Source: Polaromonas sp. AET17H-212
GTDB taxonomy: Bacteria; Pseudomonadota; Gammaproteobacteria; Burkholderiales; Burkholderiaceae_C
Assembly: GCF_002379085.1 (NCBI RefSeq)
Contig: NZ_NBZW01000001.1
Span: forward strand, 62,001 to 126,000
Direction of reading: 5' to 3'
Length of the DNA stretch: 64,000 nt
Below the pieces are notes generated by a model. That model saw only the letters and a program-made list of their open reading frames with translations, searched no databases and was not told where the DNA came from. Of this stretch, positions 2,502 through 63,470 are shown one piece after another (the stretch's first letter is position 1; every line of letters begins with the position of its first letter). The translations under genes and the position numbers were made by a program.

Positions 2502-2970
2502 TGAAAACAAGGGGTTCTCTCTCCGTGTCGGGGATTTGATTATCCAGTGTTGCAGCGCTGGTGCAGCGCCTTCACACCCAAAAACGTGTCAGAAAAAGCG
2601 CCGGGCGCGCAGTCTGCGCGGCGTTTGTTGGCTGATTCGCTATTGTTTCGATAGCTCTTGGCGCTTGTCTGTAAAGGGCTGCAGGCCATTTTCTTCATAA
2701 TTCTGGTCCCGCGGCACAAACGCGCTGCAGGTCCCGGTACCTGCGCAGGCGCCGGAAGCAACTGCGCGAAGGCTTTCCGGGTGCGCCCAGCCCGCGGTTG
2801 GTCCTCGCTATGATCTTGCCCGGGGCGCTTCCTGCAGTCTGCCCCCGCCGACTGTCACGCACCGGGCCGCACCCCGCTGCTGCCGCGTGACTTCCCTTTT
2901 TCGACGACCCAACCCGCCATGCGTGGAGGGCTGGAGTCGTTTTTTCACAGCCATCCCTGACGAACTCACC
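2502..2970. other. Gene-free stretch of about 470 bp
   Basis: No convincing gene. It holds one copy of the interspersed repeat near 2640-2694 and the upstream regions of the divergently transcribed kinase (minus) and the ParB-like gene (plus). I see no clear promoter or terminator. Confidence 0.5.
2640..2694 (+). repeat. Interspersed repeat copy 1 (ATAGCT family)
   Basis: About 55 bp with the family layout: CTATTGTTTCGATAGCT, then a GCGC core, then AAGGGCTGCAGGCC, then a T-rich tail. It is intergenic, and the same layout recurs at about eleven other places in the window. Confidence 0.7.
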
Positions 2971-3726
2971 ATGAACATCACGGTCAACCAAGAATTGCTT
3001 GCCTACATCGATCCGCTGACCGCCGACGAACGCGAGGCCCTGGAGCGCAGCCTGCTGGCCGAAGGTTGCCGCGATGCGCTGGTGCTGTGGGGCGACGTGC
3101 TGGTGGACGGCCACAACCGCCACAGCATCTGTACCCAGCACGGCATCTCTTTCAACACCGTGCAGAACAGCCATTTCAAATCCATGGACGACGTGCACCT
3201 GTGGATGATCGACCAGCACCTGGGGCGGCGCAGTGTGTCTGACTTCCAGCGTGGTGTGCTGGCCCTGCGCAAAAAGGACATCCTGGCGGCGCGCGCGCAA
3301 ACCACGGCGGATGGCTCTTCCGCGTCCGACCAGGCGCAAGGCGCCCCGACCCCGGCGCCCGAACCCCTGCTGACGCGCGACGCTCTGGCCAAGGCAGCCC
3401 GCATCAGCAGCAACACCATCAGCCAGATCGAGAAGATCCAGAAGTCGGCCGCCCCCGAACTGATGGCGGCGGTGAAGTCCGGCACGATTTCCATCAACGC
3501 CGCTGCCAGCGTGGCCTCGCTGCCGGTCGAGGTGCAGGTGGCCGCCGCCGCCGGTGGCCGCAAGGAGCTGCAGCAGGCCGCCCGCCAGGTGCGCGAAACA
3601 CGCGCCGTGGCGCGCACCGAACCGGAGTCACCCGAGGGAGTGATTGCGCGGCTCCGGCAGACCATCAGCGAACTGACGGCGGAAAATGCCGCGCTCAAGG
3701 CCCAGCTGGCCGGGCAAAGCCGTTGA
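2971..3726 (+). CDS. Orphan ParB-like (ParB N-terminal domain) protein
   Basis: 251-residue protein. Residues about 5-60 resemble the ParB/RepB/Spo0J N-terminal domain of plasmid and phage proteins, with an acidic start, EGCRDALVLW and VDGHNRHSIC. This is followed by a region like the ParB helix-turn-helix linker (DFQRGVLALR), then LTRDALAKAARISSNTISQIEKI, and a C-terminal coiled coil (about 220-247, ISELTAENAALKAQL). ParB-like proteins bind DNA, and some cleave CTP or DNA. No parA, parS cluster or plasmid genes lie nearby, so a role in partition is not supported; an orphan DNA-binding regulator or a relic of a mobile element is possible. An in-frame extension upstream exists, but the ATG at 2971 begins the recognisable domain. 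Confidence 0.75.
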   Translation: MNITVNQELLAYIDPLTADEREALERSLLAEGCRDALVLWGDVLVDGHNRHSICTQHGISFNTVQNSHFKSMDDVHLWMIDQHLGRRSVSDFQRGVLALRKKDILAARAQTTADGSSASDQAQGAPTPAPEPLLTRDALAKAARISSNTISQIEKIQKSAAPELMAAVKSGTISINAAASVASLPVEVQVAAAAGGRKELQQAARQVRETRAVARTEPESPEGVIARLRQTISELTAENAALKAQLAGQSR

Positions 3727-3765
3727 GTCGTCGGCGCCGTTGAGTTTGCCCCTCAGCGGTTTTGT

Positions 3766-3823
3766 CATGAGTCAAAACGGCCTCCAGCCCTTATGTTGCG
3801 AGCGCAAGCAGCTATCAAATAAG
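3766..3823 (-). repeat. Interspersed repeat copy 2
   Basis: Read on the minus strand: CTTATTTGATAGCTGCTTGC, then AAGGGCTGGAGGCCG and a T-rich tail. This is one of the best-conserved copies. It lies just downstream of the ParB-like gene and ends about 14 bp from the stop of the permease gene. Confidence 0.8.
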
Positions 3824-3836
3824 GAGCATGCTGGCG

Positions 3837-4583
3837 TCACCAGCCACGCCACACCAGCCAGCCGCCCAGCACCAGCAAGCCGCCCATGAAACAGGCGCGG
3901 AAGCCGTTCTGGCTCAGTTCGTCGCGCAGGTTCTGGCCCAGCCACATGCCCAGCATGGCAGGCAGCAGCATCAGCAATGACTGTGCAGCCGAGTCCGCAT
4001 TCAGGTGGCGGCTGCCGGCCAGTGCCACGGCCAGTGCGAGCGTGGAGACCGTGAACGACAAGCCCAGTGCCTGTGCCATCTCGTCCTTCTTCAGCCCCAG
4101 CGCCTGCAACCAGGGCACGGCCGGCAGCACAAACACGCCGGTGGCCGCCGTCAGCAGGCCGGTCAGCGTGCCGATGAGGCCGGACAGGCCCGCTTCCCGC
4201 TGCGGCCGGGGCGGTGGCAGGCGCAAGCCCGCCAGCCCGGCCAGCGCGTAGGCGACCAGGCTCAGGCCCAGCCACAGCATGGCGTGCCCGCCCGGTGTGG
4301 CCATCCAGCCGCGCCCCAGCCAGACGCCGAAGCAGACGCCGGCCATCATGGGCCACAGCCGCTTGAGCAGCGCCCGCAGGTGCCCGCCGCGCGACATCTG
4401 CCACAGGTTGGTCGCCAGCGCAGGCAGCACGAGCAGGGCCGCGCCTTCGGCCACCGGCATCATCAACCCCAGCAGACCCATGGCCACCGTCGGCAGGCCC
4501 ATGCCCAGCACGCCCTTGACACCGCCCGCCGCGAGAAAGACAAAACTCACCAGCATGAACTCGTGGACGTCGGGGACAAACAT
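3837..4583 (-). CDS. TauE/SafE family membrane permease
   Basis: 248-residue polytopic inner-membrane protein with two homologous halves of hydrophobic helices, each with a Gly-rich first helix (GGVKGVLGMGLPTVAMGLLG and GTLTGLLTAATGVFVLPAVP). This is typical of the TauE/SafE (former DUF81) family, which exports or moves sulfite, sulfonates or other small organic anions. The substrate cannot be told. The ATG at 4583 was chosen because upstream residues are not hydrophobic and do not look like family sequence. It is transcribed divergently from the LysR gene at 4693 with only 109 bp between, the classic layout of a LysR regulator and its target. Confidence 0.85.
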   Translation of the reverse strand: MFVPDVHEFMLVSFVFLAAGGVKGVLGMGLPTVAMGLLGLMMPVAEGAALLVLPALATNLWQMSRGGHLRALLKRLWPMMAGVCFGVWLGRGWMATPGGHAMLWLGLSLVAYALAGLAGLRLPPPRPQREAGLSGLIGTLTGLLTAATGVFVLPAVPWLQALGLKKDEMAQALGLSFTVSTLALAVALAGSRHLNADSAAQSLLMLLPAMLGMWLGQNLRDELSQNGFRACFMGGLLVLGGWLVWRGW

Positions 4584-4692
4584 GCGTGCTCCTGGGGAAT
4601 GCGGGCTTGCAGTGTCGCCCGACGCCGCCGCCCTGACCATCTGTCTTTGCTTGAGGTAGGCTCAGCGCTGTGTGTAGCCACCGGTGACCTCA

Positions 4693-7229: not shown

Positions 7230-7293
7230 TTTTTGAAGCCAAATTGGCCTCTAGCCTATGTTGTACGTGCGCCGGTAGCTATTAATTCAATAG
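7230..7293 (-). repeat. Interspersed repeat copy 3, supplying a stop codon
   Basis: Read on the minus strand: CTATTGAATTAATAGCT, then GCGCACGTAC, GGCTAGAGGCC and a TTTGGCTTC tail. The CTATTGAATTAA part forms the last codons and stop of the CoA-transferase gene (7282-8199), so the repeat overlaps the 3' end of that gene. Confidence 0.75.
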
Positions 7294-8199
7294 CGTATGC
7301 AGGGGAATGTCTTTTGCCGTTGCCAGCTGGTCGAGCTGCGCGCGTGTCTGTGTGAGCATGAATGCCGCTATCGCCTGGTGTGTGGCGGGTGCAAACATGG
7401 CCTGAATGGTTGCCGCCTCCACGCCCGCCGCCGCACACAGGGCGGCGGCAAAGTGCGGCTCCAGCGCCGCCACCGCCACACGGCCGTCCCGGCAGGGGTA
7501 GACCCGGTAGCCGGCATGCGCACCGCCGACCGAGCCGCTGGGCTGCGTCAGGCCCCACTGCCGCGGCAGCGCCAGGTAGGCCGCGGCCTCGGACAGGGCC
7601 ACTTCGATGAAGGCCCCGCGCGGATGCGGGTCGCCCGAGCCGGCATACGGCTCCTGCCGGCGCAGGGCCGCTTGCAGCACGGCCTCGCTGGCCATCAGCG
7701 AGCCGCTCATATCGGCGTACAACGTGGGTGGCAGGTTCAGCCCGGTCACCAGGTCGTTGTGGGCCATGTAGGTGAGGTCGTGGCCGGGCTCTTCGCCCAG
7801 CGCACCTGGCGCGCCAACGATGGCGACATGCGACAGCGCGGGGTAAAGCGAATGGATTTTTTTCCAGCCCAGGCCCAGCTTGTCAATCGCTGAAGGACGG
7901 AAGGAGGTGAGCAGCACGTCGGTTTTCTCAAGTTCGCGGTGCAGCACCTTCTGGCCGGCTTCGGTTTTCAGGTCGGCCGACAGCACCTTCACGCCCTCAT
8001 GCAGTTGCGCATAGGCCGGCTTGTTGTAGAGCCCCATGGGGTCGCCCGCGGGTGGCTCGAGCTTGATGCAGGTTGCACCCATCTGCCGGCAACGCATCAG
8101 CGCGGCCGGGCCGGGCAGGTTGAGCGCCAGGCTCAGGATGCGCAGGCCTTGCAGGGACTGGAGGGCAGGGTGTTTGGCTGGCGTGGCGCTGGATGGCAT
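7282..8199 (-). CDS. CaiB/BaiF family CoA-transferase
   Basis: 305-residue member of the family III CoA-transferases, which also holds alpha-methylacyl-CoA racemases. The N-terminal half carries LRILSLALNLPGPAALMRC and GATCIKLEPPAGDPM, the usual CoA-binding segment. HDLTYMAHNDL is where the catalytic Asp of the family sits (Asp in GHDL). At 305 residues it is shorter than the roughly 350-400 typical of many members but fits racemase-like short forms. The substrate is unknown. The last codons LLN-stop come from an interspersed repeat (7230-7293), so the C-terminus may have been altered. The start at 8199 avoids a Pro-rich leader that does not match the family. Confidence 0.82.
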   Translation of the reverse strand: MPSSATPAKHPALQSLQGLRILSLALNLPGPAALMRCRQMGATCIKLEPPAGDPMGLYNKPAYAQLHEGVKVLSADLKTEAGQKVLHRELEKTDVLLTSFRPSAIDKLGLGWKKIHSLYPALSHVAIVGAPGALGEEPGHDLTYMAHNDLVTGLNLPPTLYADMSGSLMASEAVLQAALRRQEPYAGSGDPHPRGAFIEVALSEAAAYLALPRQWGLTQPSGSVGGAHAGYRVYPCRDGRVAVAALEPHFAAALCAAAGVEAATIQAMFAPATHQAIAAFMLTQTRAQLDQLATAKDIPLHTLLN

Positions 8200-8348
8200 G
8201 GATGGACCTGGGTGAAGGGCGGGCAGGATGAAGAAGGGCGAGAAGGGAAAAAGGGGCGGCGAAGTGTGCTGGCAATTTACCCTAAACGGAGGGCGCCGCG
8301 CCATGCCGCGGACAGGCCCTGAGGTCAGGGCCGGGAAGACTAGCTTTT

Positions 8349-25025: not shown

Positions 25026-26609
25026 TCAGGGTGTGCCTTGCTGGCGCAATTTGAAGCGCTGGATCTTGCCGGTCGCGGTTTTCGGCAACTCGTCCACAAA
25101 CTCTATCCAGCGCGGGTACTTGTAAGGCGCCAGTTGCTGCTTGACGTGCGCCTTGAGGTCGTCGGCCGAGGCGGCCTGGCCTTTCTTCAGCACCACAAAC
25201 GCCTTCGGCTTGACCAGCTGGTCGGCATCGGCCAGACCGACCACCGCCACTTCGAGCACCGCCGGGTGGGTCATCAGCGAGGCCTCCACCTCGAAGGGCG
25301 AGACATAGATGCCACCGACCTTGAGCATGTCGTCGGTGCGGCCGCTGTAGGTGTAGTAGCCATCGGCATCCACCGTGTATTTGTCGCCGCTGCGTGTCCA
25401 CTCGCCGGCAAACGTGGCCTTGGTCTTGGCGCGGCTGTTCCAGTACATCAGGGCCGAACTCGGGCCCTGGATCTGCAGCTCGCCGATCTCGCCGACGCCG
25501 CACTCACGGCCGTCATCACCGACGATGCGCAGCGCATAACCGGGCACGGCCTTGCCGGTGCTGCCGTAACGTACTTCGCCGGGCCGGTTGCTCAGGAAGA
25601 TGTGCAGCATTTCGGTCGAGCCGATGCCGTCGAGGATGTCGCAGCCATACTCGGCGGCCCACTTGTGGCCGATGCCGGCGGGGAGGGCCTCGCCGGCGCT
25701 GGTGCAGACGCGCAGCTTCAGCGCAGCCCGGGGCTGTCGCGCCGGGTCCGCCAGCAGCGAGGCGTACAGCGTCGGCACGCCGTAGAAGATGCTGGGCTGG
25801 TGTTCCTTCAGGATGCGGAAGACCTCGGCCGTGGTCGGGCGTGCCGGCAACAGGATGGCCGTGGCGCCGACACTCATCGGAAAGGTCAGGCCGTTGCCCA
25901 GCCCGTAGGCAAAAAACAGCTTGGCCGCGGAATACACCACGTCCGACTCCTGGATGCCCAGCACACCGCGGCCGTACAGTTCGGCGGTCTGGATCAGGTG
26001 GCTGTGCAGGTGCACCGTGCCCTTGGGCGCACCGGTGGAGCCGCTCGAATACAGCCAGAAACAGGCGTCGTCGGCGCAGGTGGGCGCAATGGTTTTGGTA
26101 GCTTCCTGCGCGCGTACCATCCGGGCCAGGCTTGCATACGGTGCGGCATCTTCGGTGCCGGCAACAATCACGCTGCGCAGCGTGGGAATGCTCCCGATCA
26201 GCGGCGCAAACGCGGGCAGCAGCGCCTGGGACACGATCAGGCCCTGGGCGCGCGAGTCGCGCAGCATGAAGTCGAAGTCGGGCGTGGTCAGCAGGGTGTT
26301 GGCAGCCACCGGCACCACACCGGCCAGGATGCAACCCAGAAAAGCCACCGGCCATTCAGGGGTGTCCAGCATGGCCAGCAGCACACGGCTCTCGGGGGCG
26401 AAGCCCTGGGCGCGCAGCGCATTGGCGAAGCGGTGGGCCTGGTCGTCCAGTTCGCCGTAGCTCAGCGTCGCACCGCTGACGGCATCGATAAACGCGAGCT
26501 TGCCGGCGCGGCCGGTGTTGCGTGCCAGCAGGTCATGGGCAGCGTTGTAGTCGCGGGGAATGTCAACGCGAGGGGGGCTCACCGACTGGTCGGCGCGGCT
26601 CAGGTTCAT
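25026..26609 (-). CDS. bclA: Benzoate-CoA ligase
   Basis: 527-residue member of the adenylate-forming (ANL) family that converts benzoate, ATP and CoA to benzoyl-CoA. Motifs: the phosphate loop YSSGSTGAPKGTVH, the A5-type motif DGIGSTEMLHIFLSN, the motif DGYYTYSGRTDDMLKVGG (Asp plus hinge), and the catalytic Lys in LPKTATGKIQRFKLR near the C-terminus. FFAYGLGNGLTFPM and the SSTEMLH-like motif are typical of benzoate-CoA ligases. Position and strand place it between the transporter and the box genes. Residues encoded near 26083-26131 may derive from a decayed interspersed repeat. Confidence 0.95.
   Translation of the reverse strand: MNLSRADQSVSPPRVDIPRDYNAAHDLLARNTGRAGKLAFIDAVSGATLSYGELDDQAHRFANALRAQGFAPESRVLLAMLDTPEWPVAFLGCILAGVVPVAANTLLTTPDFDFMLRDSRAQGLIVSQALLPAFAPLIGSIPTLRSVIVAGTEDAAPYASLARMVRAQEATKTIAPTCADDACFWLYSSGSTGAPKGTVHLHSHLIQTAELYGRGVLGIQESDVVYSAAKLFFAYGLGNGLTFPMSVGATAILLPARPTTAEVFRILKEHQPSIFYGVPTLYASLLADPARQPRAALKLRVCTSAGEALPAGIGHKWAAEYGCDILDGIGSTEMLHIFLSNRPGEVRYGSTGKAVPGYALRIVGDDGRECGVGEIGELQIQGPSSALMYWNSRAKTKATFAGEWTRSGDKYTVDADGYYTYSGRTDDMLKVGGIYVSPFEVEASLMTHPAVLEVAVVGLADADQLVKPKAFVVLKKGQAASADDLKAHVKQQLAPYKYPRWIEFVDELPKTATGKIQRFKLRQQGTP
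26083..26131 (+). repeat. Possible decayed interspersed repeat inside bclA
   Basis: CAATGGTTTTGGTAGCTTCC then TGCGCGCGTAC and GGGCCAGGCTTGC resembles the family layout with several mismatches, antisense to bclA. It corresponds to a linker segment (around MVRAQEATKTIAP) before the ATP-binding loop. The match may be chance. Confidence 0.3.
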
Positions 26610-26628
26610 GGGGTCTCCGGATGCTCTC

Positions 26629-26688
26629 TTTTTTATAGCTGCTTGCGCCCGATTCTATTGGGCTTGAGGCTTTTTCTATTGAAATTCA
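26629..26688 (+). repeat. Interspersed repeat copy between flavodoxin gene and bclA
   Basis: CTCTTTTTTATAGCTGCTTG, then CGCCCGATTCTATTGGGC, TTGAGGC and a TTTTTCTATTGAAATT tail. CGCCCGATTCTATTGGGC is itself a small hairpin. The tail runs into the stop codon of the flavodoxin gene. The copy sits in the 73-bp gap between two cotranscribed genes and could form an mRNA hairpin. Confidence 0.8.
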
Positions 26689-27174
26689 GGCGGCTTCGGT
26701 GCTGGGCGTGCTGCTCAGTGCCAGCGCCAGCCATTCGCGGCACCAGGCGGCACCTTCGGTCTCGGGCAGGGTGCCGGCGCTGGCGTCGTGGCACCAGACC
26801 TCGCCGATACGCTGCGCACCTAGGCCTTGCAGGCGCTCGTCGAACTTCTTGCCGCCGAAACAGAAGGTCTGCAGGTAGGTGCGGTCGCCGAGGGCGATCA
26901 CGCCGTAACGCACATGGCCCAGGAATTTGGGTTGGGCATCGAGCGAGTCATACAGCAGCCGGGCGTTGTCCGGCACATCGCCTTGGCCATAGGTGGAAGA
27001 GCAGATGAGATATATTGCATCTTCTTCGGCGGCGCCGTCAAAGACGCTGATGTCCAGGCCGTCCATCAACTGCACCTCGATATCACTGACGAGATCGGCG
27101 CAATCCATCTGGATGGCTTGGGCGACATAGTCGGCCGTGCTGGTCATGGTGCCCACGAGAATTTTGAGTTTCAT
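26686..27174 (-). CDS. MioC-like flavodoxin-domain protein of the box cluster
   Basis: 162-residue single-domain flavodoxin-fold protein. The FMN phosphate-binding loop is ILVGTMTSTADYVAQAI (about residues 5-21), the second loop is SSTYGQGDVPDNARLLYDSL (about 59-78), and the third is VIALGDRTYLQTFCFGGKKF (about 90-110), all close to MioC and short-chain flavodoxins. It would carry one or two electrons via FMN in the cytoplasm. It lies between bclA and boxR, divergent from boxR, and probably belongs to the aromatic regulon. boxA, the usual reductase for BoxB, is not in the window, so this protein may serve in electron delivery to BoxB; that is a hypothesis. Confidence 0.85.
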   Translation of the reverse strand: MKLKILVGTMTSTADYVAQAIQMDCADLVSDIEVQLMDGLDISVFDGAAEEDAIYLICSSTYGQGDVPDNARLLYDSLDAQPKFLGHVRYGVIALGDRTYLQTFCFGGKKFDERLQGLGAQRIGEVWCHDASAGTLPETEGAAWCREWLALALSSTPSTEAA

Positions 27175-28196: not shown

Positions 28197-29900
28197 ATGA
28201 ACGCCATGACCGAACCGCTGTTATTCAAGCAGGTGATCGAAGGCCAGGAGCGCGAGCTCGTGAGCTTTGCCACCCATCCGACCAAGTACCAGCACTGGAC
28301 CCTGAGCGTGGAGGGCGACATTGCCCGCCTCAAGCTCGACATCAATGAAGACGGCGGCATCAAGCCCGGCTACAAGCTCAAGCTCAACAGCTACGACCTC
28401 GGCGTGGACATCGAGCTGCACGACGCGATCAACCGCATCCGTTTCGAGCATCCTGCCGTCAAGGTGGTGGTGTTCGAGTCGGGCAAGGAAAAGATCTGGT
28501 GCTCGGGCGCCAACATCTACATGCTGGGACTGTCCACCCACGGCTGGAAGGTCAACTTCTGCAAGTTCACCAATGAAACCCGCAACGGCCTGGAAGACTC
28601 CTCGCGCCATGATGGCCTGAAAGCCATCGCGGCCGTGACCGGCGCCTGTGCCGGCGGTGGCTACGAGCTGGCGCTGGCCTGCGACCGCATCGTGATGGTC
28701 GACGACCGCTCCAGCACGGTGAGCCTGCCCGAGGTGCCGTTGCTCGGCGTGTTGCCCGGCACCGGTGGCCTGACGCGCGTGACCGACAAGCGCAAGGTGC
28801 GCCGCGACCTGGCCGACATCTTCTGCACCACCTCCGAAGGCGTGCGGGCCGACCGCGCCAAAGACTGGAAACTGATCGACGCCTATGCCAAGCCGCAGCA
28901 GTTCGGCGCCTTGCTTGCTACTGAAATAGAAGCGCTTCGCGTCCAGTCGACAAGGGCTACAGCCTCAAAAGGCATTGAACTGACGCCACTCACGGTGCGC
29001 ATCGACGATGCCGGCTACCACTACAGCGTGGTCGATGCGCAGGTGGACCGCGAAAAACGCATCGCCACCCTCACCATCAAGGCGCCGGCCGCCGCCATCG
29101 AGTCCACGCCGGAAGCCATCGAAGCCGCGGGCGCCAGCTGGTACCCGCTGAAGCTGCAGCGTGAACTCGACGACGCCATCCTGAACCTGCGCACCAACGA
29201 ACTCGAAGTCGGTACCTGGGTCATCAAGACGCAGGGCGACGCCGGCCAGGTGATGCGTATGGACGAGGTGCTGGCCAGACTGAAGGACCACTGGCTGGTC
29301 AAGGAAACCACAGGCGCGCTGCGCCGCACGCTGGCGCGGCTGGACGTGACCAGCCGCTCGCTGATCGCGCTGGTCGATGCCGGCTCGTGTTTCGCTGGCA
29401 CCTTTTACGAACTGGCCCTGGCCTGCGACCGCATCTACATGCTGGACCTGCCGGATTCGCCCGACGCGGCACCCGCGCTGCAGCTGAGCCCCGCCAACTT
29501 TGGCTGGTTCCCGGCCGTCAACCACCTGACGCGGCTGCAGACCCGGTTTTATGAAGACGAGGCCACCATCGCGCAGTTGCAAAAACTCGGCGACAGCCCG
29601 CTGCGCGCCGACCAGGCGCTGGCACTGGGTCTGGTCACCCTGAGCCCCGACGACATCGACTGGGACGACGAGATCCGCATCATGCTGGAAGAGCGTGCGT
29701 CCATGTCGCCCGACGCCATGACCGGCATGGAGGCCTCGCTGCGTTTCCCCGGCAAGGAGACCATGGAGACCCGTGTGTTCGGTCGGCTCAGCGCCTGGCA
29801 AAACTGGATTTTCATCCGCCCGAATGCGGTGGGCGAGGAGGGTGCCCTGAAACTTTTTGGCACCGGTAAAAAAGCGAAATTCGACTGGAAAAGGATTTAA
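28197..29900 (+). CDS. boxC: Benzoyl-CoA-dihydrodiol lyase / 2,3-epoxybenzoyl-CoA dihydrolase
   Basis: 567-residue enzyme with two crotonase-like halves. It opens the ring of 2,3-epoxybenzoyl-CoA by hydrolysis, releasing formate and 3,4-dehydroadipyl-CoA semialdehyde. Crotonase features: SGKEKIWCSGANIYMLG (about residues 95-111), TGACAGGGYELALACDRIVM oxyanion region (about 148-167), and a second-half counterpart, DAGSCFAGTFYELALACDRI. AAGGAG lies 7 bp before ATG 28197. A segment near residues 240-263 (ALLATEIEALRVQSTRATAS) matches the interspersed repeat family read in frame and may be an inserted surface loop. boxB follows after 4 bp. Confidence 0.96.
   Translation: MNAMTEPLLFKQVIEGQERELVSFATHPTKYQHWTLSVEGDIARLKLDINEDGGIKPGYKLKLNSYDLGVDIELHDAINRIRFEHPAVKVVVFESGKEKIWCSGANIYMLGLSTHGWKVNFCKFTNETRNGLEDSSRHDGLKAIAAVTGACAGGGYELALACDRIVMVDDRSSTVSLPEVPLLGVLPGTGGLTRVTDKRKVRRDLADIFCTTSEGVRADRAKDWKLIDAYAKPQQFGALLATEIEALRVQSTRATASKGIELTPLTVRIDDAGYHYSVVDAQVDREKRIATLTIKAPAAAIESTPEAIEAAGASWYPLKLQRELDDAILNLRTNELEVGTWVIKTQGDAGQVMRMDEVLARLKDHWLVKETTGALRRTLARLDVTSRSLIALVDAGSCFAGTFYELALACDRIYMLDLPDSPDAAPALQLSPANFGWFPAVNHLTRLQTRFYEDEATIAQLQKLGDSPLRADQALALGLVTLSPDDIDWDDEIRIMLEERASMSPDAMTGMEASLRFPGKETMETRVFGRLSAWQNWIFIRPNAVGEEGALKLFGTGKKAKFDWKRI
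28914..28978 (+). repeat. Interspersed repeat read in frame inside boxC
   Basis: CTACTGAAATAGAAGCGCTT, then CGCGTCCAGTCGACAAGGGC, then TACAGCCTCAAAAGGCATTG. This follows the family layout (CTACT...TAGCTGCTTGCGC...CAAGGGCTACAGGCC) with the TAG stop removed by reading frame. It lies in frame in boxC without breaking it. Confidence 0.6.
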
Positions 29901-32970: not shown

Positions 32971-33654
32971 ATGTTTGAGCGCCTGAAAAAAGTCTTGGTG
33001 CGAAGCGAGACTCGGCCGCTGGAAGCGGCGAGGTCCGACGCGGTGTCGGAGTGGGCCAGCACGCACGGCTTCAGTTATTCCAGCCAGGGCAAGGGCGCCG
33101 GTGTTGTGCTGACCGGCAAGGTGCGCGGCAAGAGCTGGAAGCTGGAGAGCGGGGCGGCCTCACGCGACTACATCGTCGGTGAGGAGCTTCGCGCCCGTGC
33201 TGCGCTGGACATCAACGAAGATGCGGCGGTGCTCATCATGAACCGGCCCCTCAAGGAATCGCTGGAAAAACGCGCCTACGCGATTTACACCGACACGCTG
33301 CAGACCACGGCCGCCCCCAGCCTGCCTGAGGAAATGCGCTGGCTCGCGATGTACGACGAAGTCGGCTGGAGCAGCCTGGTGCCCGAATTCTGGGAGCGTT
33401 ACACCGTGCGGGCCGACCGGCGCGAAAATGCCCTGGCATGGCTGGACAGCAACCTGGCCGAATTGCTGCTCCACTGGCCGGCACCGGGCCTGGATGTGCA
33501 AACCCCGTTCATCCTGATGCTGCTCCGCGGCAAGGCCTACCTGCGCATGCAGTACAGCCCGCCCAGCATTGCCACGCTGCAACATGCCGCGATCGTGTAC
33601 ACCAGCGCCTGTGAGTCGGCGCTGGCGGGCCTGTCGACGGACATTCCCCTCTGA
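32971..33654 (+). CDS. Conserved hypothetical protein
   Basis: 227-residue protein that I cannot assign to a family. It begins MFERLKKVLVRSETRPLEAA, has no signal peptide or membrane helix, and contains a mixed alpha/beta pattern (GYSSQGKGAGVVLTGKVRG-like strands near residues 30-50) followed by a helical C-terminal half (ENALAWLDSNLAELLLHWPA). It is probably cytoplasmic. Codon use matches neighbours. A much longer open frame upstream is antisense to the GST gene and is rejected. It is divergent from the GST gene across 96 bp. The stop is immediately followed by an interspersed repeat. Confidence 0.7.
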   Translation: MFERLKKVLVRSETRPLEAARSDAVSEWASTHGFSYSSQGKGAGVVLTGKVRGKSWKLESGAASRDYIVGEELRARAALDINEDAAVLIMNRPLKESLEKRAYAIYTDTLQTTAAPSLPEEMRWLAMYDEVGWSSLVPEFWERYTVRADRRENALAWLDSNLAELLLHWPAPGLDVQTPFILMLLRGKAYLRMQYSPPSIATLQHAAIVYTSACESALAGLSTDIPL

Positions 33655-33716
33655 TTCAAGCCAAAAATGGCTTGCGCCCAACAAAGACGGGCGCATTCAG
33701 CTATTATTTTTATAGC
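33655..33716 (-). repeat. Interspersed repeat between hypothetical and acyl-CoA dehydrogenase genes
   Basis: Minus-strand reading: GCTATAAAAATAATAGCT, then GAATGCGCCCGTCTTTGTTG, GGCGCAAGCCATTTTTGGCT. A variant copy whose GCGCCCG...GGGCGC arms form a hairpin. It abuts the stop of one gene and lies 24 bp from the next convergent stop, so it could act as a bidirectional 3' end structure. Confidence 0.7.
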
Positions 33717-33739
33717 TAACCAGCGCCCGGTTTTCTCCA

Positions 33740-34999
33740 TCAGCTGCCGCGGGTGATCGGCATCTCGACCTCGCCGGGCATGGCCAGGTGTTTGGCCAGT
33801 TCCAGCTTGGCCAGCGAAGCGCGGTGCACTTCATCGGGGCCGTCGGCCAGTCGCAGGGTGCGCTGGTGGGCGTAGGCATAGGCCAGCGGGAAGTCATCGG
33901 ACACGCCGCCGCCGCCGTGCGCCTGGATGGCCCAGTCGATGATCTGGCAGGCCATGTTGGGCGCGACGACCTTGATCATGGCGATTTCGGCCTTGGCGAT
34001 CTTGTTGCCGACGGTGTCCATCATGTAGGCCGCTTTCAGCGTCAGCAACCTGGCCTGGTCGATCATGCAGCGTGCGTCGGCAATGCGTTCATGCCAGACC
34101 GACTGGCGTGCCACCGGCTTGCCGAAAGCGACGCGGGTGTTCAGGCGCTTGCACATCAGTTCCAGTGCACGTTCGGCAATGCCGATGCTGCGCATGCAAT
34201 GGTGGATGCGTCCGGGGCCAAGGCGGCCTTGCGCGATTTCAAAGCCGCGGCCTTCGCCAAGCAGCAGGTTGGTTGCCGGGACACGCACGTTGGTCAGGCG
34301 CACCTCCATGTGGCCGTGCGGTGCATCGTCGTAGCCGAACACGCTGAGCGGTCGGATCACGGTGATGCCGGGTGCATCGGCCGGCACCAGGATCATGGAC
34401 TGCTGCTCGTGGCGGCCCGCGTCGGGGTTGGTTTTGCCCATGACGATGTAAATCGCGCAGCGTGGGTCGCCGGCGCCCGACGACCACCATTTCAGGCCGT
34501 TGATCACATAGTCGTCACCGTCACGGACGATGCTGCACTGGATGTTGGTGGCGTCGGACGAGGCCACTTCGGGCTCGGTCATCAGGAAGGCGGAACGGAT
34601 CTCGCCCTTGAGCAGGGGTTCCAGCCAGCGGTCCTTGTTGGCTTCCGAGCCGTAGCGGGCGATCGTTTCCATGTTGCCGGTGTCGGGTGCCGAGCAGTTG
34701 AAGATCTCGGGCGCAAATGGCACGCGGCCCATGATTTCGCACAGCGGCGCGTACTCGAGGTTGGACAGGCCCTCCGGTGCACGCGGCGAATGTGGCAGGA
34801 ACAGATTCCACAAACCGGCCGCGCGGGCCTTGGGCTTGAGTTCCTCGATGATGGTGGTCGGAATCCACGGATTGCCCTTGGCGCGGTTCTCCGCAATCTC
34901 GCGGAAAAAGCGCGCCTCGTTCGGGTAAACATGCTGGTCCATGAACGCCAGCAGGCGGGCCTGCAGTTCCTGGACCTTGGGGGTGTAGTTGAATTCCAT
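33740..34999 (-). CDS. Acyl-CoA dehydrogenase (ACAD10/11-like)
   Basis: 419-residue FAD enzyme that forms a C2-C3 double bond in an acyl-CoA. The three-domain fold is evident: N-terminal helices, the central beta domain with [20 protein letters not shown] and [12 protein letters not shown], and C-terminal helices with [20 protein letters not shown] and [20 protein letters not shown]. The late motif [18 protein letters not shown] is typical of ACAD10/11-type enzymes rather than classical short-chain ones. Next to it is an APH-like kinase, the partner fused to the dehydrogenase in ACAD10/11; in these, 4-hydroxyacyl-CoA breakdown is a known role. The start is ATG 34999. Confidence 0.92.
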
Positions 35000-44085: not shown

Positions 44086-44114
44086 TTCTTTAAAGAATGC
44101 AAGTCTCAACGCTT

Positions 44115-45074
44115 ATGAACAGAAAAATCGTGATTCTGGGTACCGGCGGCACGATTGCCGGCACCGCCGCCAGTGCCTCGGACCATACGGGTTACACCGC
44201 CGCGCAGGTGGGCATTGCCCAACTGGTCGAGGCCGTGCCGGCGCTGGCCGAAGGCCCCTGCGATCTGGTGACCGAGCAGGTGGCGCAAATCGACAGCAAG
44301 GACATGAGTTTTGCCGTCTGGGCCCGGCTCGCCGCGCGGGTCAGCCACTTCCTGGCGCAGCCCGATGTGCAAGGCATCGTCGTGACACACGGCACCGACA
44401 CGCTGGAGGAAACCGCCTGGTTCCTGCACGCGTTGCTCCATCCCGGCAAGCCGGTGGTGCTGACCTGTGCGATGCGACCGGCCACGGCGCTGGCGCCGGA
44501 CGGCCCGCAGAACCTGCTGGACGCGGTGGCTGTCGCCGCGCATCCCGGCGCACGCGGTGTGCTGGCCGTGTGTGCGGGTGTCATTCACGGCGCGCTGGAC
44601 GTGCAGAAGGTGCATACCTACCGGCTCAACGCCTTCAGCTCCGGCGATGCCGGGCCGGTCGGTTATGTCGAGGAAGGGCGCTTGCGTATGCTGAGAAACT
44701 GGCCTGAAGCCCCCGCCCATCAAGCGCCAGCAGCTATCAAAAAAGTAGTAGCGCAGCAGGACGGCTGCAACTGGCCGCGTGTCGAGATCGTGATGAATTA
44801 CGCGGGTGCCCGCGCTGGTGTGGTGCAGGCGCTGGTGGCCGCGGGCGTGCAGGGCCTGGTGGTAGCGGCAACCGGCAATGGCACGCTGCACCAGGACCTC
44901 GAGGCGGCGCTGCTGGAGGCGCAGGCGGCCGGCGTGCGGGTGGTTCGCGCCACCCGTTGCCCGGAGGGCAGGGTGTTGCCCAGGCACGGCGACGTCATTG
45001 CGGATTCCCAGGGCCTGAGCCCCGTGAAAGCGCGGGTGGAGCTGATGCTTCAATTGATGGCCGGGCACGGTTGA
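44115..45074 (+). CDS. L-asparaginase family protein
   Basis: 319-residue asparaginase (asparagine to aspartate and ammonia). The first catalytic Thr is in ILGTGGTIAGTA (about residues 6-17), and the second in VVTHGTDTLEETAWFL (about 90-105). No signal peptide, so cytoplasmic. ATG 44115 gives the family N-terminus; an in-frame ATG at 44097 is possible. Codons near 44700-44751 (residues about 196-213, WPEAPAHQAPAAIKKVVAQQ) match the interspersed repeat in frame, giving an extra loop between the two domains. It faces lexA across SOS boxes. The stop is 4 bp before the next gene. Confidence 0.9.
   Translation: MNRKIVILGTGGTIAGTAASASDHTGYTAAQVGIAQLVEAVPALAEGPCDLVTEQVAQIDSKDMSFAVWARLAARVSHFLAQPDVQGIVVTHGTDTLEETAWFLHALLHPGKPVVLTCAMRPATALAPDGPQNLLDAVAVAAHPGARGVLAVCAGVIHGALDVQKVHTYRLNAFSSGDAGPVGYVEEGRLRMLRNWPEAPAHQAPAAIKKVVAQQDGCNWPRVEIVMNYAGARAGVVQALVAAGVQGLVVAATGNGTLHQDLEAALLEAQAAGVRVVRATRCPEGRVLPRHGDVIADSQGLSPVKARVELMLQLMAGHG
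44700..44751 (-). repeat. Interspersed repeat read in frame inside the asparaginase gene
   Basis: Minus-strand reading: CTACTTTTTTGATAGCTGCT, then GGCGCTTGATGGGCGGGGGC and TTCAGGCC. It is a close match to the family consensus at both ends, antisense to the gene, and leaves the asparaginase frame open. Confidence 0.75.
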
Positions 45075-47628: not shown

Positions 47629-47811
47629 TCACAGGCCGAGTTCCTCGTCTGTGAGGGTGCGCGCCTCGCTCTCGAGCATCACCGGCAGTCCGTCGCGAAT
47701 GGGGTAGGCCAGACGTGCGCTGCGCGAGATCAGCTCCTGTTTTTCACGGTCGTAGTCGAGCGGGCCCTTGGTCACGGGGCAGACCAGCAGTTCAAGCAGT
47801 TTGGTGTCCAT
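47629..47811 (-). CDS. Trm112 family protein
   Basis: 60-residue small protein: [20 protein letters not shown], then [20 protein letters not shown] and LTDEELGL. It belongs to the Trm112/YcaR family, which in eukaryotes activates methyltransferases; bacterial members are mostly uncharacterised. Only one Cys (CPVT) of the zinc pairs seen in some members remains, so metal binding is unlikely. The start overlaps the lpxK stop by 20 bp, indicating coupled translation. Confidence 0.88.
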
Positions 47812-48841
47812 GGGAGGATGGTAATGGAGAAAGCAGGGGGGCCAGCAAGGCATCGAGCGCTGTGAAAAAGGCCGGTTCGGGTGAAAACTCCAGCGGCACA
47901 GCCAACACATCTGCTTGCCGCGGAAACAGCTTGACCGCGTCTTTTTCAGTGCAAATCACGGTGTAGCCCTTGTCCTGCGGACGCGGATAGCTATCAAAAC
48001 TGTAGTGATCGGGCAATGCCCGGGTTTCGGCCAGCACCAGGCCGCGGTCGCGCAACATGGCAAAAAACGCCTCGGGTTTGGCGATGCCGGCCAGCGCCAG
48101 CAGCGACTGGCCGGCCAGGCTCTCGAGTGCCACGCGGCTGCCGTCGGCACGCAGCGCGTGGTCGGCCAGGCGCCGCGTCGAGCCAAAACCCGAAGAGCCC
48201 GTAAAGGCGGCGTGTTCGCCGTTGTGCAGCACCAGGTCAATGCCGCGCCCGCCGGCGCGCACGCCGCGTTGCAGGCGGTCCGGCCAGGGCTCGCGCAGGG
48301 GGCCGGCCGGCAGTAGCCAGCCGTTGCCGACGCCACGCTCGTCGAACACCGCAATCTCGACGTCACGCTGCAGCGCGTAATGCTGCAGGCCGTCGTCACA
48401 GACGATCAGCTGTGTCTGGCAATGGGCAGCGAGCAGCGCACGCGCGGCCTCGACGCGCCGGGATGCTACAAAAACAGGAGCACCCGTCACCCGCCGGATC
48501 AGGGCCGGCTCGTCGCCCGACGCGTCGACGGGGGTGCCCGGCAAGACCTCCAGGCAATGCGGGCTGCTACGCCCGTAGCCGCGCGAGACCACCCCGACCT
48601 GCAGGCCGCGGGCCTGCAGGTGCTGCACCAGGGCAATCACCGCCGGGGTCTTGCCGGCTCCGCCCGCCACCACGTTGCCCACCACCAGCACCGGCACGGG
48701 CAGGCGTTCAGATTTGAAGTAGCCGGCCCGGAAGGCCAGCCGGCGCAATTCGGCCAGCAGGCCGTACAGCCGGGACAGCGGCCAGAGCAGACAGGCAAGC
48801 ATGCCGCGCCGCAGCCAGGCCTGCTGCAGCCGGGTCGCCAC
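47792..48841 (-). CDS. lpxK: Tetraacyldisaccharide 4'-kinase
   Basis: 349-residue inner-membrane-associated kinase that phosphorylates the lipid A precursor. N-terminal amphipathic/membrane segment, then [20 protein letters not shown] (Walker A, about residues 48-67), [12 protein letters not shown], and [31 protein letters not shown] is the usual C-terminal segment. The stretch before it, [18 protein letters not shown], matches the interspersed repeat family in frame (47951-48008). ATG 48841 is 3 bp after the exbD stop. Confidence 0.95.
47951..48008 (-). repeat. Probable interspersed repeat read in frame inside lpxK
   Basis: Minus-strand reading: CTACAGTTTTGATAGCTATC, then CGCGTCCGCAGGACAAGGGC and TACACC. 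It fits the family layout (CTACnnTTTTGATAGCT, GCG, ACAAGGGCTACA), here in the sense direction of lpxK, just before the conserved TEKDAVK segment. Confidence 0.55.
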
Positions 48842-58019: not shown

Positions 58020-60356
<2,337 letters not shown>

Positions 60357-60376
60357 GGCAACAGCGGGCAAGCCGT

Positions 60377-60413
60377 AAAAAAGGCCGGTGGCGTCATGCC
60401 CCGGCCTTTTTTT
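60377..60413 (+). terminator. Terminator after clpA
   Basis: AAAAAAGGCCGG ... CCGGCCTTTTTTT with a 12-nt loop, 20 bp after the clpA stop. Confidence 0.9.
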
Positions 60414-60420
60414 ATTTGCT

Positions 60421-60475
60421 CCTGAAACAATAGCTGCTTGCGCCCGTGTTTATTGGGCAAGAGGCCTGTTTCATG
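60421..60475 (+). repeat. Interspersed repeat copy downstream of clpA
   Basis: CCTGAAACAATAGCTGCTTG, then CGCCCGTGTTTATTGGGC, AAGAGGCCTGTTTCATGAG. Very close to the copy at 26629-26688. It immediately follows the clpA terminator. Confidence 0.8.
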
Positions 60476-60527
60476 AGTCGTCGCCGGCCACGTTCGGCAC
60501 GCCGCGGCGACACGCCCAGGCGGGCGT

Positions 60528-60956
60528 TTATTTGACCAGCAACACGGGCACCGGCGACTGATGGATCACGCGCTGGGCCACCGAGCCCAGCACCACGCTG
60601 CCGACGGCGCCCATACCGCGTGTGCCCATGGCAATCTGGTCCACCTGCAGGTCCTTGGCGATACGCACGATCTCGTTGGCAATCACCCCATGGGCGCGGG
60701 CGGGCTCGGCGAGCTTGAGTCCCTGCGCCCTGGCGCGTTCCGCGGCTTTGGCGAGGATCACGGTTTGCTGCTTTTTCTGATCCTCTTCAATTTTCTCTAT
60801 GGTGGCCAGGGTATAGCCGCCATACAGGAGCGGCTCCGGGCTGACGCAGAGCAGCGTGGCCTCCACATCCAGTGAAGACCGGACCATGGCGCCGACGGCG
60901 TCCACCGCCCGGTCAGCATGCTCGGAACCATCTACCGCAATCAGGATTTTCAGCAT
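60528..60956 (-). CDS. Universal stress protein (UspA family)
   Basis: 142-residue UspA-domain protein. N-terminal strand KILIAVDGSEHADRAVDAVG and C-terminal ATP-binding motif GTRGMGAVGSVVLGSVAQRV fit G-x2-G-x9-G-S, so it is probably an ATP-binding (UspFG-type) member. Function in stress survival, exact role unknown. ATG 60956 begins the domain. It lies downstream of the host-attachment-family gene on the same strand, 50 bp apart. Confidence 0.92.
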   Translation of the reverse strand: MLKILIAVDGSEHADRAVDAVGAMVRSSLDVEATLLCVSPEPLLYGGYTLATIEKIEEDQKKQQTVILAKAAERARAQGLKLAEPARAHGVIANEIVRIAKDLQVDQIAMGTRGMGAVGSVVLGSVAQRVIHQSPVPVLLVK

Positions 60957-61006
60957 GAATCACACCTTTTTTGTCAGGCACAAAAAGCACCTCGCACCTC
61001 GTTCCC

Positions 61007-61465
61007 TCAATCGGGCAGTCGCAAGGCGTCATCGACACGTTTTTTCAACTCGGGGCCCTCGTAGCGGGTCAGGTCGCCGACCACGGCACTCTGCACCACC
61101 TTCTGGGTGGCAGGGCTCAAACAGGGCCGGAGTTCACCCAGCATGGGGCTGGAGGCAATCAGCACCAGCCCGTTGCAGCGCTTCGCGGCCACTCCCTCGT
61201 TGAGGTAATCGGCGAGCTGGCGGGCAAAGCTGTCACGTTCCTTGGCCTGGGCTGGCGTATGCGGCTCAAACTGCGTGCCGGCATGCCCGGTGCGCCCGTG
61301 GCCCTTACCCGCCGCGCCTGTCAGCGCGCCACCCTGGGCCTCGCCGCCAAGGCTGGCATGTGGATGCACAAAGTCGCTCAACTCGGTGAGTGCATGGCTG
61401 GTGGAATCACGCTGGAAGCAGCGTGCACGCTCGGCATTGGCGACCAGAACCCAGGTTTTGTCCAT
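61007..61465 (-). CDS. Host attachment family protein
   Basis: 152-residue protein that resembles proteins annotated as required for attachment to host cells (Pfam host_attach): DKTWVLVANAERARCFQRDS at the start, a variable middle with Gly-rich GALTGAAGKGHGRTGHAGTQ, and FARQLADYLNEGVAAKRCNG near the end. The fold is RNase H/eRF1-like, and members are found in many free-living bacteria, so the name is not informative. ATG 61465 preferred; upstream extension is not family-like. It shares its strand with the universal stress gene, suggesting a stress-linked unit. Confidence 0.8.
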   Translation of the reverse strand: MDKTWVLVANAERARCFQRDSTSHALTELSDFVHPHASLGGEAQGGALTGAAGKGHGRTGHAGTQFEPHTPAQAKERDSFARQLADYLNEGVAAKRCNGLVLIASSPMLGELRPCLSPATQKVVQSAVVGDLTRYEGPELKKRVDDALRLPD

Positions 61466-61916
61466 GATGTTTCCTTTGGAGACTCCCGCCCGTGAAACCG
61501 GCGTCGTTCGGGTTTCATGGCCGGCACTTGATCGGAGCGCCTGCAAATAGTAGGACTGGCTGGCCGTGGCCTGCTTGATGTATCGCAAAGGTTCACGGTG
61601 CTGCATGGCGCGCTGTCCTGGGCGGGGATTTCTGGCGCGCGAGGCGGATGAGGGGATGGCCGCCGGGTTCCTGCGAGCCAGGACAATATCTGCCGCGCAT
61701 GAGTCGACGAACGGCTGTGGGGGCGCCGAAAAATGGCGGAACGACCCGGACAGCGCCCGGAAGAATCTGGAAGCGCCGAAAAGGCCGGTAGCATCGCGCT
61801 ACCGGCCATTTTGCTTTGGCCGCCTGAAATGCTCCTGAAACCATAGCTGCTTTCGACCGTCCGGTAAGGGATGGCGGCACTTTTTACTCCCAACCCTGGC
61901 TGACAGGCCCCGACCG
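61466..61916. other. Intergenic region with a hairpin and a repeat
   Basis: About 450 bp. GGCCGGTAGC-ATCGC-GCTACCGGCC at 61783-61807 is a perfect 10-bp stem flanked by AAAA and TTTT, a terminator-like structure that has no gene in front of it on the plus strand. An interspersed repeat follows at 61830-61885. Otherwise no gene is supported. Confidence 0.55.
61830..61885 (+). repeat. Interspersed repeat copy upstream of sbcB
   Basis: CTCCTGAAACCATAGCTGCT, then TTCGACCGTCCGGTAAGGGA and TGGCGGCAC. A partly decayed copy with the core ATAGCTGCT and AAGGG kept. Confidence 0.6.
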
Positions 61917-63386
61917 ATGGCGACGCACACCTTCCTCTGGCACGACTACGAAACCTTCGGCCTGAACACGCGCCGCGACCGGCCGGCGCAGTTTGCCGGC
62001 ATACGCACCGACGCCGAACTCAACGAGATCGGCGAGCCGCTGATGATTTATTGCCAGCCGGCGCGCGACTACCTGCCCGACCCGTCCTCCTGCCTGATCA
62101 CCGGCATCACGCCGCAGCTGTGCCTGGAGCGCGGCCTGCCCGAACATGCATTCGCCGCCCGCATCGAAGCCGTGCTGGCCGAGCCCGGCACCATTGGCGT
62201 GGGCTACAACACCATCCGGTTCGACGACGAGGTCACGCGCCACCTGTTCTGGCGCAACCTGATCGACCCCTACGCGCGCGAGTGGCAAAACGGCTGCGGC
62301 CGCTGGGACCTGCTCGACGTGGTGCGCATGGCTTATGCGCTGCGGCCCGAAGGCATCACCTGGCCGATGAAACCCGATGAACGCCGCCCCGGCGAGGCCG
62401 GTGCCTTGCGTCCCAGCTTCAAGCTCGAAGACCTGGCGCGCGCCAACGGCCTGCTGCACGAAACGGCGCACGACGCGCTGTCGGACGTGCGCGCCACGAT
62501 TGCGCTGGCCCGCCTGGTCCGCACGGCCCAGCCCAAGCTGTTCGACTTCTGCCTGGGGCTGCACAAGAAAGACCGGGTGGCGGCCGAACTCGGCCTGCCC
62601 ACCAGCCCGCAGACGGCGCAGCCGTTTCTGCATGTGTCGGGCATGTTCCCGCCCGAGCGCGGCTGCCTGGCTGTCATGTGGCCGCTGACCATACACCCCG
62701 CCAACAAAAACGAGCTGCTGGCCTGGGACCTGGCGCAGGACCCCGGCGAATTGCCGCTGCTCGACGTGGCGACCCTGCGCCAGCGCCTGTTCAGCAAAAG
62801 CGCGGACTTGCCGGAAGGCGTGCTGCGCCTGCCGATCAAGTCGGTGCACCTGAACAAGTCGCCCATGGTGGTGCGCAAGCTGGCCACCCTGAGCCCGGAG
62901 ATGGCCGCCCGGTGGGGGGTGGACATGGAGGCCGCACTGCGCCACGCCGAAAAAGCTGCCGGCCTGCCCGACATGAGCGCGATCTGGCCGGAGGTTTTTG
63001 CGCGGCCCAAAGAGGGCATTCCCGACGTGGACGAAGACCTGTACGGCGGCTTCATCAACAACGACGACCGGCGTCGCCTGAACCAGCTGCGTGCCTTGCC
63101 GGCGGCCGAACTGGCGCACAGCCGCACCGGCTTCGACGACGACCGGCTCGAAGAGCTGGTGTTTCGCTACCGCGCCCGCAATTTCGAGGCGACACTCTCG
63201 CCGGAAGAGGCCGAACGCTGGGAGGCGCACCGCGCCGCGCGGCTGCTCGAAGGCGAAGGCGGGGCGCGCAATGTCGATGCCTTTCTGGCCGCACTCGATG
63301 TGCTGTCGGAGACGGCGGACGAACGCGGGGAAACGGTGCTGGCGGCGCTGTATGACTATGCGGAGATGGTGGCGCCCGAGGTGTGA
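61917..63386 (+). CDS. sbcB: Exodeoxyribonuclease I
   Basis: 489-residue 3'-5' single-strand exonuclease, DEDDh family. Exo I: HTFLWHDYETFG (Asp and Glu, residues about 3-14); Exo II: GVGYNTIRFDDEVTRH (Asp about 101); Exo III: ETAHDALSDVRATIALA (His and Asp about 182-187). SH3-like and helical C-terminal parts follow, matching the E. coli enzyme (475 aa). ATG 61917 starts the domain. It works in mismatch repair and recombination. Confidence 0.95.
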   Translation: MATHTFLWHDYETFGLNTRRDRPAQFAGIRTDAELNEIGEPLMIYCQPARDYLPDPSSCLITGITPQLCLERGLPEHAFAARIEAVLAEPGTIGVGYNTIRFDDEVTRHLFWRNLIDPYAREWQNGCGRWDLLDVVRMAYALRPEGITWPMKPDERRPGEAGALRPSFKLEDLARANGLLHETAHDALSDVRATIALARLVRTAQPKLFDFCLGLHKKDRVAAELGLPTSPQTAQPFLHVSGMFPPERGCLAVMWPLTIHPANKNELLAWDLAQDPGELPLLDVATLRQRLFSKSADLPEGVLRLPIKSVHLNKSPMVVRKLATLSPEMAARWGVDMEAALRHAEKAAGLPDMSAIWPEVFARPKEGIPDVDEDLYGGFINNDDRRRLNQLRALPAAELAHSRTGFDDDRLEELVFRYRARNFEATLSPEEAERWEAHRAARLLEGEGGARNVDAFLAALDVLSETADERGETVLAALYDYAEMVAPEV

Positions 63387-63412
63387 ATGGCGCATCCGGA
63401 AGCGGTGGTTTG

Positions 63413-63470
63413 CTTCTCTATTGATAGCTGCTTGCGCTTATATCGAAAGGGCTGGTGGCCGATTTGATGC
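63413..63470 (+). repeat. Interspersed repeat copy downstream of sbcB
   Basis: CTCTATTGATAGCTGCTTGC, then GCTTATATCGAAAGGGCTGG and TGGCCGATTTGATGC. It lies between the convergent stops of sbcB and the GST gene. Confidence 0.75.

Follow-up and report, generated by a model that had tools for sequence, protein, structure and literature searches.

The question raised by this locus is whether a short sequence recurring along it was scattered by copying or was gained and kept in place. The locus is a 64,000-nt stretch of DNA from Polaromonas sp. AET17H-212 (positions 62,001 to 126,000 of contig NZ_NBZW01000001.1), hereafter the window. An earlier note had listed twelve interspersed repeats of about 55 bp in it, lying in both orientations at gene ends, and had suggested a non-autonomous mobile or processing element. 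We tentatively favour another reading, to which we give slightly less than an even chance: the repeats could mark where a long motif of 66 bp is recognised in double-stranded DNA, rather than being recent copies of a transposing element. This reading is based on their fixed length, genus dialects and strand neutrality, on the protection of informative columns in Polaromonas, on the lack of recent copies in the samples and on coding sites that are mostly length-neutral, as well as on sites that close species largely share but different genera seldom do.

The repeats form a genuine interspersed family. All twelve listed places (12/12) were examined, nine being clear sites and three (26083, 28914 and 47951) weak ones. 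A sequence-only profile recovered the nine clear copies at E ≤ 2.3e-12, with 47951 coming tenth, and the reversed (backwards-read) window sequence gave zero sites above 12 bits, its best being -6. Since the profile was partly built from window copies, counting over the whole own genome offers a cleaner control: there, ATAGCTGCTNGCGC was matched 201 times with at most one mismatch, versus 15 times for the reversed pattern. The reversed-sequence control and the genome-wide counts thus rule out a chance origin of the strong window copies. A profile search of the own genome, as proposed in the earlier note, returned at least 150 matches. The density of one per 5-7 kb in the window is close to the one per 5 kb estimated previously, and six Polaromonas stretches hold 12.5-18.2 copies per 100 kb.

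The unit itself is 66 nt long and not about 55, as judged from the limits of column information, which starts about 13 nt 5' of ATAGCTGCT and ends about 51 nt 3' of it. With the aligner free to open gaps, 34 Polaromonas copies (30 found via the core pattern plus four window copies) aligned gaplessly over 68 columns, and the consensus is roughly TGCTAYTnAWTTGATAGCTGCTnGCGCCCGTnnnnATTGGGCTGGAGGCCnATTTTGnCTnnnAAA, in which neither a GTAG/GGAG foot nor a terminal inverted repeat (TIR) was seen by eye. Identical 66-nt limits, with 46.5-53.6 bits, were obtained in the genus designated g38, in Xenophilus (g81) and in Acidovorax (g92) by means of an ungapped matrix, with which gapped copies could be missed. 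The motif occurs in genus dialects, with GCGCCCG..GGGC in Polaromonas and GCGCT..AGCGC in g38 and g92.

At orthologous Polaromonas sites, the informative columns change about 2.5 times more slowly than the variable ones. In intergenic DNA, the mismatch was 0.092 for the most informative third of columns versus 0.237 for the least informative, a ratio of 0.39 (46 ordered pairs from 21 genome positions, the second member unfiltered, representing fewer independent loci); neutral simulations with the same ascertainment gave ratios of 0.89-0.95. Coding sites gave a ratio of 0.49 (74 ordered pairs). When all Polaromonas pairs were pooled, conserved A/T columns differed at 9.2%, variable columns at 25.7% and A/T positions of the 30-nt flanks at 22.7%.

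Comparison of close relatives does not bear out the mobility suggested in the earlier note, at least as a current process. Of 28 elements, 16 could be placed by both flanks in G360, a genome about 90% identical to the own one, and every one of these sites was occupied there. In the opposite direction, 18 of 26 were placed and 16 of these were occupied, the remaining two being eroded to 4 and 11 bits with no change in length. The comparison with G361 gave 13 occupied sites out of 14, and two weaker coding sites of G362 (25 and 32 bits) were eroded or absent in relatives at near-equal length. The Xenophilus pair was occupied at 11/11 sites one way and at 11/12 the other, the exception (G277 67612 vs G116) resembling a partial deletion of an ancestral copy, and all placed g38 sites were occupied save one of nine (G180 to G254). 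More change is seen in Acidovorax (about 84% identity), with three of five G215 sites present in G127, near-palindromic sites being counted once. The mapped pairs of these four genera yielded no clean empty site; the candidates in Acidovorax and g38 fall in unalignable or larger gaps. With no such site and no terminal inverted repeats by eye, insertion of a transposon or a miniature inverted-repeat transposable element was rejected.

Sharing between genera is, on the other hand, rare (0/10 conditional comparisons among 20 orthologous gene families, a small sample). The earlier note had held that copies conserved at the same places across genera would argue against mobility; such sharing was not found, but the places are conserved within the genus. 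Upstream of sbcB this rule holds only in part, with copies on one strand in Polaromonas and six Acidovorax loci and on the opposite strand in three other genomes. In these three (L107:4919-4964, L124:4917-4978 and L128:3631-3668, one of them a Rhodoferax), the gene context is also different.

Paralogous copies within genomes are saturated at the variable columns (0.63-0.68 mismatch). In samples of 10 genomes, the closest within-genome pairs are 66-79% alike and no pair reaches 85%. As no more than about 2-4% of each genome is represented there, a broader set was drawn from the own genome, comprising 68 copies (from 60 loci picked by core match or score and from 180 kb of sequence). Its best pair was 76% alike, versus 75% after column shuffling (p = 0.24). 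The sampled copies hence show no sign of recent copying.

Most coding copies leave the protein length nearly or wholly unchanged, whereas insertion of a 66-mer should lengthen the product by 22 residues. When 12 coding sites were compared with homologues lacking the motif, seven were within 2 residues, four were at +4 to +10 relative to at least one homologue and one was at +16 to +24. The net gap at the site is zero in kdsB, folP, dppD and citE. The C-terminal part of xseA has no net gap relative to Polaromonas and gaps of either sign relative to more divergent g38 homologues, and the two putA sites differ by +1 and by 0 to -2, respectively. These two sites of the own-genome putA (L023) have opposite orientations and both are open in frame. 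Among the longer cases, truB is at +4 relative to E. coli-type TruB and 0 relative to 1sgv, a hydroxyisobutyryl-CoA hydrolase homologue at +6 relative to 4hdt, and cobU at +10 relative to 8yep, yet no longer than 7tm8. The kdsB site scores 26-42 bits in four g38 species and -21 to -42 in Xenophilus and Polaromonas with identical length around it. Such length-neutral sites are the strongest argument against simple insertion, and they could have arisen by recombinational replacement or by stepwise change. Rickettsia palindromic elements are similarly read in frame in many unrelated proteins; those are in-frame insertions, according to passages of PMC3733652, whereas the sites described here are mostly length-neutral, with 1/12 near +22 aa.

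The position of the copies relative to genes was assessed on 273 copies from 15 genome stretches, using simple gene calls and including orthologous stretches, so that not all copies are independent. In this census, 200 of the 273 are intergenic (68 convergent, 113 tandem and 19 divergent) and 73 coding. Per kb of intergenic DNA (gaps of at least 80 nt), convergent regions carry 1.85 copies, tandem ones 1.19 and divergent ones 0.32, and 74 of the 113 tandem copies lie closer to the upstream stop than to the downstream start, which substantiates the preference for gene ends noted before. Both orientations do occur, on the two strands of the window and, between tandem genes, in 57 sense and 56 antisense copies, indicating strand neutrality. 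The proximity to gene 3' ends, along with hairpins visible by eye in single copies, could suggest a transcription terminator, an attenuator or an RNA-processing element. The earlier note had described an internal hairpin in some copies; the consensus fold has 2 pairs and zero covariation, and an Rfam scan of the window at the gathering threshold found two tRNAs only. Lacking a fold, an Rfam family and a strand bias, an RNA element was rejected and appears very improbable, and the processing role proposed earlier is disfavoured with it.

Profile matches were obtained in 29 of 37 Polaromonas genomes (own included), from 1 to at least 84 each; the other eight, including the 100%-complete G013, had none, and neither had any of 24 genomes (24/24) from other families of the same order. 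Many genera of the family, though not every one, carry hundreds of sites. Across 300 same-family genomes, core counts on both strands range from background (about 3 to 20) up to 783 (G073), and the contrast can be sharp within a genus (225, 13, 258 and 15 in g81). The carrier genera include Polaromonas, Acidovorax, Rhodoferax and Xenophilus, all Comamonadaceae, in agreement with the similar sequences mentioned in the earlier note. In four g38 genomes, 28-43 copies were found in 85-100 kb near clpA, and the reversed sequence gave zero. Such a repeat family of Comamonadaceae is not named in the consulted parts of PMC2755013, PMC2817692 and PMC3733652 or of the other open-licence literature searched.

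A 150-kb sample of plasmid pPNAP01 contained 2 copies, versus 12.5-18.2 per 100 kb on the chromosomes of other strains. Both elements of this conjugative plasmid (L430:36066 and 37421) lie on either side of an ATPase gene, itself located between pglX and pglW in a BREX-2 cluster. A consensus query of a plasmid collection returned 7 records at E ≤ 10, the best at 0.01, and was too insensitive for use. Among 80 virus-collection contigs matched by the core pattern, 12 carry full elements, which may lie in host flanks or in phage DNA (L310, L257, L262, L331, L301, L275, L269, L260, L324, L265, L280 and L259).

Scarcity on the plasmid sample, column protection, strand neutrality and a mild chromosome-orientation skew would also fit a chromosomal binding site (for a nucleoid protein, gyrase, or a replication or segregation factor) under ordinary cell-level selection. 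The skew was seen on the complete chromosome of Polaromonas P2-4, where 94 of 150 best matches are consistently oriented with a split near 2.8 Mb (p = 0.002); it is a hint only, since the split was chosen afterwards and the origin and terminus were not located. To our knowledge, there is no 66-bp binding site of this sort, and the complete genome of G013, from the same genus, is devoid of profile matches, so we consider a chromosomal binding site improbable.

The sites could also be a family akin to the repetitive extragenic palindromic (REP) sequences, non-autonomous and mobilised mostly long ago by a single-copy RAYT/TIRYT Y1 (HUH) nuclease encoded upstream of gltB, an explanation that we judge less likely than not but rank only slightly below the favoured one. 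The copy at the RAYT 3' end would then belong to the unit, and the dispersed copies would be old and now constrained. The earlier note had proposed to look for a linked RAYT-like gene, and such a gene often has a copy at its 3' end, but it also occurs in element-free genomes. In the 20/20 loci first examined (L377:4159-4857; L378-L396), the RAYT-type gene is immediately followed by one and the same kind of neighbour, a gltB-like open reading frame (ORF) of at least 969 aa and of class-II glutamine amidotransferase type, which was taken for gltB. The 232-aa protein is an NCBIfam REP_Tyr_transpos equivalog, matches TnpArep 4er8 weakly (E = 0.00015) and carries the motifs NHVH, WE, YIDLNP and WSS. 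By its motifs and length, it would fit TnpA-Y1 subclass 2.1, near the genes of which no REP-like repeats are reported in the parts consulted of a 2018 survey (PMC6006769). A Y1_Tnp match is present in 18/18 element-rich genomes, usually as one, but also in 13/16 element-poor ones, and the RAYT gene itself in 60/61 Polaromonas genomes, element-free ones included; its simple presence or absence was thus rejected as the sole explanation.

An antisense copy (>16 bits) lies over the RAYT stop codon at 13/18 rich versus 2/11 poor gltB-linked loci (Fisher p = 0.008); elsewhere antisense 3'-end copies occur at 3-7% of genes and cross-genus sharing is 0/10. In G144 and G172, the flanking motif comes almost immediately after the RAYT stop, with no element there. 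These 13 cases are, however, non-independent and share their history since the locus is fixed beside gltB, and most loci are not clean empty sites since the spacer from the stop to TGTCCC is 36-56 nt also without an element. Furthermore, a copy is present at just 2 of 14 scored Polaromonas loci (of 20; 6 unscorable), and the element-rich genomes G000, G004, G026, G035 and G008 lack one at the RAYT 3' end. The P2-4 orientation skew is what lagging-strand transposition would give, and some copy-to-copy relatedness exists in five of seven sets.

Several traits recall REP/REPIN systems: the repeats are short and lie near gene 3' ends (a bias also described for REPs in passages of PMC3733652), they number hundreds per genome with few between divergent genes, a single-copy RAYT-like gene is linked to them, and their vertical persistence is old. 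Unlike REPs, which are 20-40-nt palindromes with a GTAG/GGAG foot and a stable hairpin, the unit is 66 nt long and has no visible foot and no consensus hairpin; near-identical or recent copies are missing from the samples, coding sites are mostly length-neutral and RAYT genes also occur in genomes without elements. About 36-58 nt past the RAYT stop stands TGTCCCC (14/20 loci) or TGTCCCT (6/20), and GGGGTCAG was seen by eye upstream of RAYT in some loci. This downstream flank and GGGGTCAG agree fully or nearly so with the TIR consensus GGGGWSAS given in a passage of PMC3733652; the gltB-linked protein and its flanks resemble TIRYT/TnpA-Y1 subclass 2.1 and TIRtrons as presented in parts of PMC3733652 and PMC6006769. 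Unlike TIRtrons, the dispersed repeats carry no TIR motif (0/107), and this motif was rejected as part of the dispersed copies. Old mobilisation by RAYT and a recognition motif can be combined if the RAYT protein is the reader.

For the in-place recognition motif that we favour, a protein complex would read the sites, which would be gained and kept through recombination plus selection or molecular drive, and lineages losing the reader would lose the sites. The likeliest driver would be biased DNA uptake in natural transformation, by analogy with the uptake signal sequences (USS) of Pasteurellaceae and the DNA uptake sequences (DUS) of Neisseriaceae; a chromosomal binding site under ordinary selection would be the second choice. 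As with USS and DUS, the sites are strand-neutral and genome-wide, with lineage dialects and with orthologous places conserved most clearly in Polaromonas, are tolerated in coding stretches mostly without length change and are few on the plasmid sample. USS are reported to originate by point mutation, not from inserted elements, and to be rare in new DNA (PMC7811141, in part), and DUS to be conserved in permissive core regions, an origin by recombination being argued (PMC2397512, in part). Within Comamonadaceae, Verminephrobacter is naturally transformable and its authors suspect sequence-limited uptake (PMC4212676, in part). By this analogy, Comamonadaceae would possess a third, independently evolved DNA uptake signal system, with genus dialects and a 66-bp signal that exceeds every known one several-fold in length. 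Molecular drive would have carried this signal into intergenic and coding DNA alike, for the most part with no insertion; we regard this specific proposal as unlikely.

Several observations weigh against an in-place motif. Length is the chief one: known uptake signals have 9-12-bp cores with AT flanks, far short of the 66 nt and about 50 bits of the Comamonadaceae element, and point mutation alone would hardly produce a site of this kind. Its density in Polaromonas is several-fold below the about one per kb of H. influenzae USS given in a passage of PMC7811141. ComEC is found in rich and poor genomes alike (33/34 over the cut-off), and its presence is thus uninformative as a discriminator. Outside Polaromonas the column protection is weaker, both in intergenic DNA (0.69 in Xenophilus, 6 pairs) and at coding sites (0.50 in Xenophilus, 12 pairs; 0.66 in g38, 30; 0.67 in Acidovorax, 6), and the g38 intergenic ratio of 0.97 (6 pairs, 2 positions) leaves constraint unsupported there. 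Even in the pooled Polaromonas pairs, conserved G/C columns differ at 12.7% versus 17.6% for G/C in the 30-nt flanks, a modest gap. The copies also show some structure beyond that of shuffled columns. The own-genome 99th percentile is 0.71 versus 0.69 shuffled (p = 0.017), its variance ratio of 1.5 was reached by none of 300 shuffles, excess variance occurs in 7/7 sets, and the best pair exceeds the shuffles in G073, G314, G277, G361 and G180; traces of descent or subtypes therefore exist. Finally, the N-terminal part of xseA in g38 does contain an insertion of 16-24 aa, and the association with the RAYT 3' end is not predicted by a motif arising in place.

Individual sites of the window are listed in the table below. 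Orthologues of the 26083 site score 59 bits in G361 and G362, 15 in G360 and 21 in G359 at near-equal length; the 26083 copy is, as judged from these alignments, an eroded state of the strong orthologues in two related Polaromonas. Between clpA and sbcB, window positions 60357-61829 hold a 1.4-kb segment (a universal stress protein gene and a Host_attach/baeRF-family gene) flanked by two terminator and element copies. Only one terminator plus element is present between these genes in L061 and L062, and this difference suggests recombination at the repeat.

Element sites of the window (positions from its first letter; place, approximate start given in the earlier note; E, sequence-only profile; bits, weight matrix)
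Place	Feature and context	Position	Strand	E	Bits	Remarks
2640	66-nt element, intergenic, 3' of ORF 813-2504 (+)	2638..2703	+	3.1e-13	65	
3766	66-nt element, convergent, between ORF 2887-3726 (+) and TauE-family gene 3837-4640 (-)	3763..3828	-	5.4e-17	75	
7230	66-nt element over 3' end of CoA-transferase gene 7282-8304 (-)	7230..7295	-	2.5e-14	69	orthologous in G359, G361
26083	decayed element in AMP-binding enzyme gene 25026-26609 (-)	26085..26150	+		7	
26629	66-nt element between AMP-binding gene and flavodoxin gene 26686-27174 (-)	26622..26687	+	1.6e-15	76	orthologous in G359, G360, G361, G362
28914	marginal element-like stretch in enoyl-CoA hydratase-family ORF 28197-29900 (+)	28916..28981	+		24	conserved coding, 23-32 bits in four relatives
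33655	66-nt element, convergent, between ORF 32155-33654 (+) and acyl-CoA dehydrogenase 33740-34999 (-)	33652..33717	-	2.2e-12	61	orthologous in G359, G360, G361, G362
44700	element in asparaginase gene 44097-45074 (+), antisense, open frame	44685..44750	-	2.3e-12	53	present in G359, G360, G361, G362, G363; +6 aa vs 3nxk
47951	marginal element-like stretch in lpxK 47792-48841 (-)	47942..48007	-	0.0014	30	native coding sequence conserved in relatives
60421	66-nt element 3' of clpA and of a terminator-like hairpin	60417..60482	+	5.4e-15	63	pairs with next copy around 1.4-kb insert
61830	66-nt element immediately upstream of sbcB	61830..61895	+	1.4e-13	63	orthologue of relatives' single clpA-sbcB copy (L061, L062, others)
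63413	66-nt element downstream of sbcB	63411..63476	+	3.3e-14	64	orthologous in G359, G360; decayed in G362

That a large family of environmental bacteria carries 66-bp sites by the hundred, without strand preference, suggests a reader that has so far escaped notice. Whether the sites were gained in place or mobilised long ago, their length-neutral appearance in conserved proteins is unlike transposon behaviour. Should they prove to be uptake signals, a third family would be available for studying the evolution of uptake specificity and the upper limit of signal length. Should the RAYT protein encoded beside gltB be what reads them, the long-open role of domesticated RAYT nucleases would become directly testable, in a subclass reported to be without repeats.

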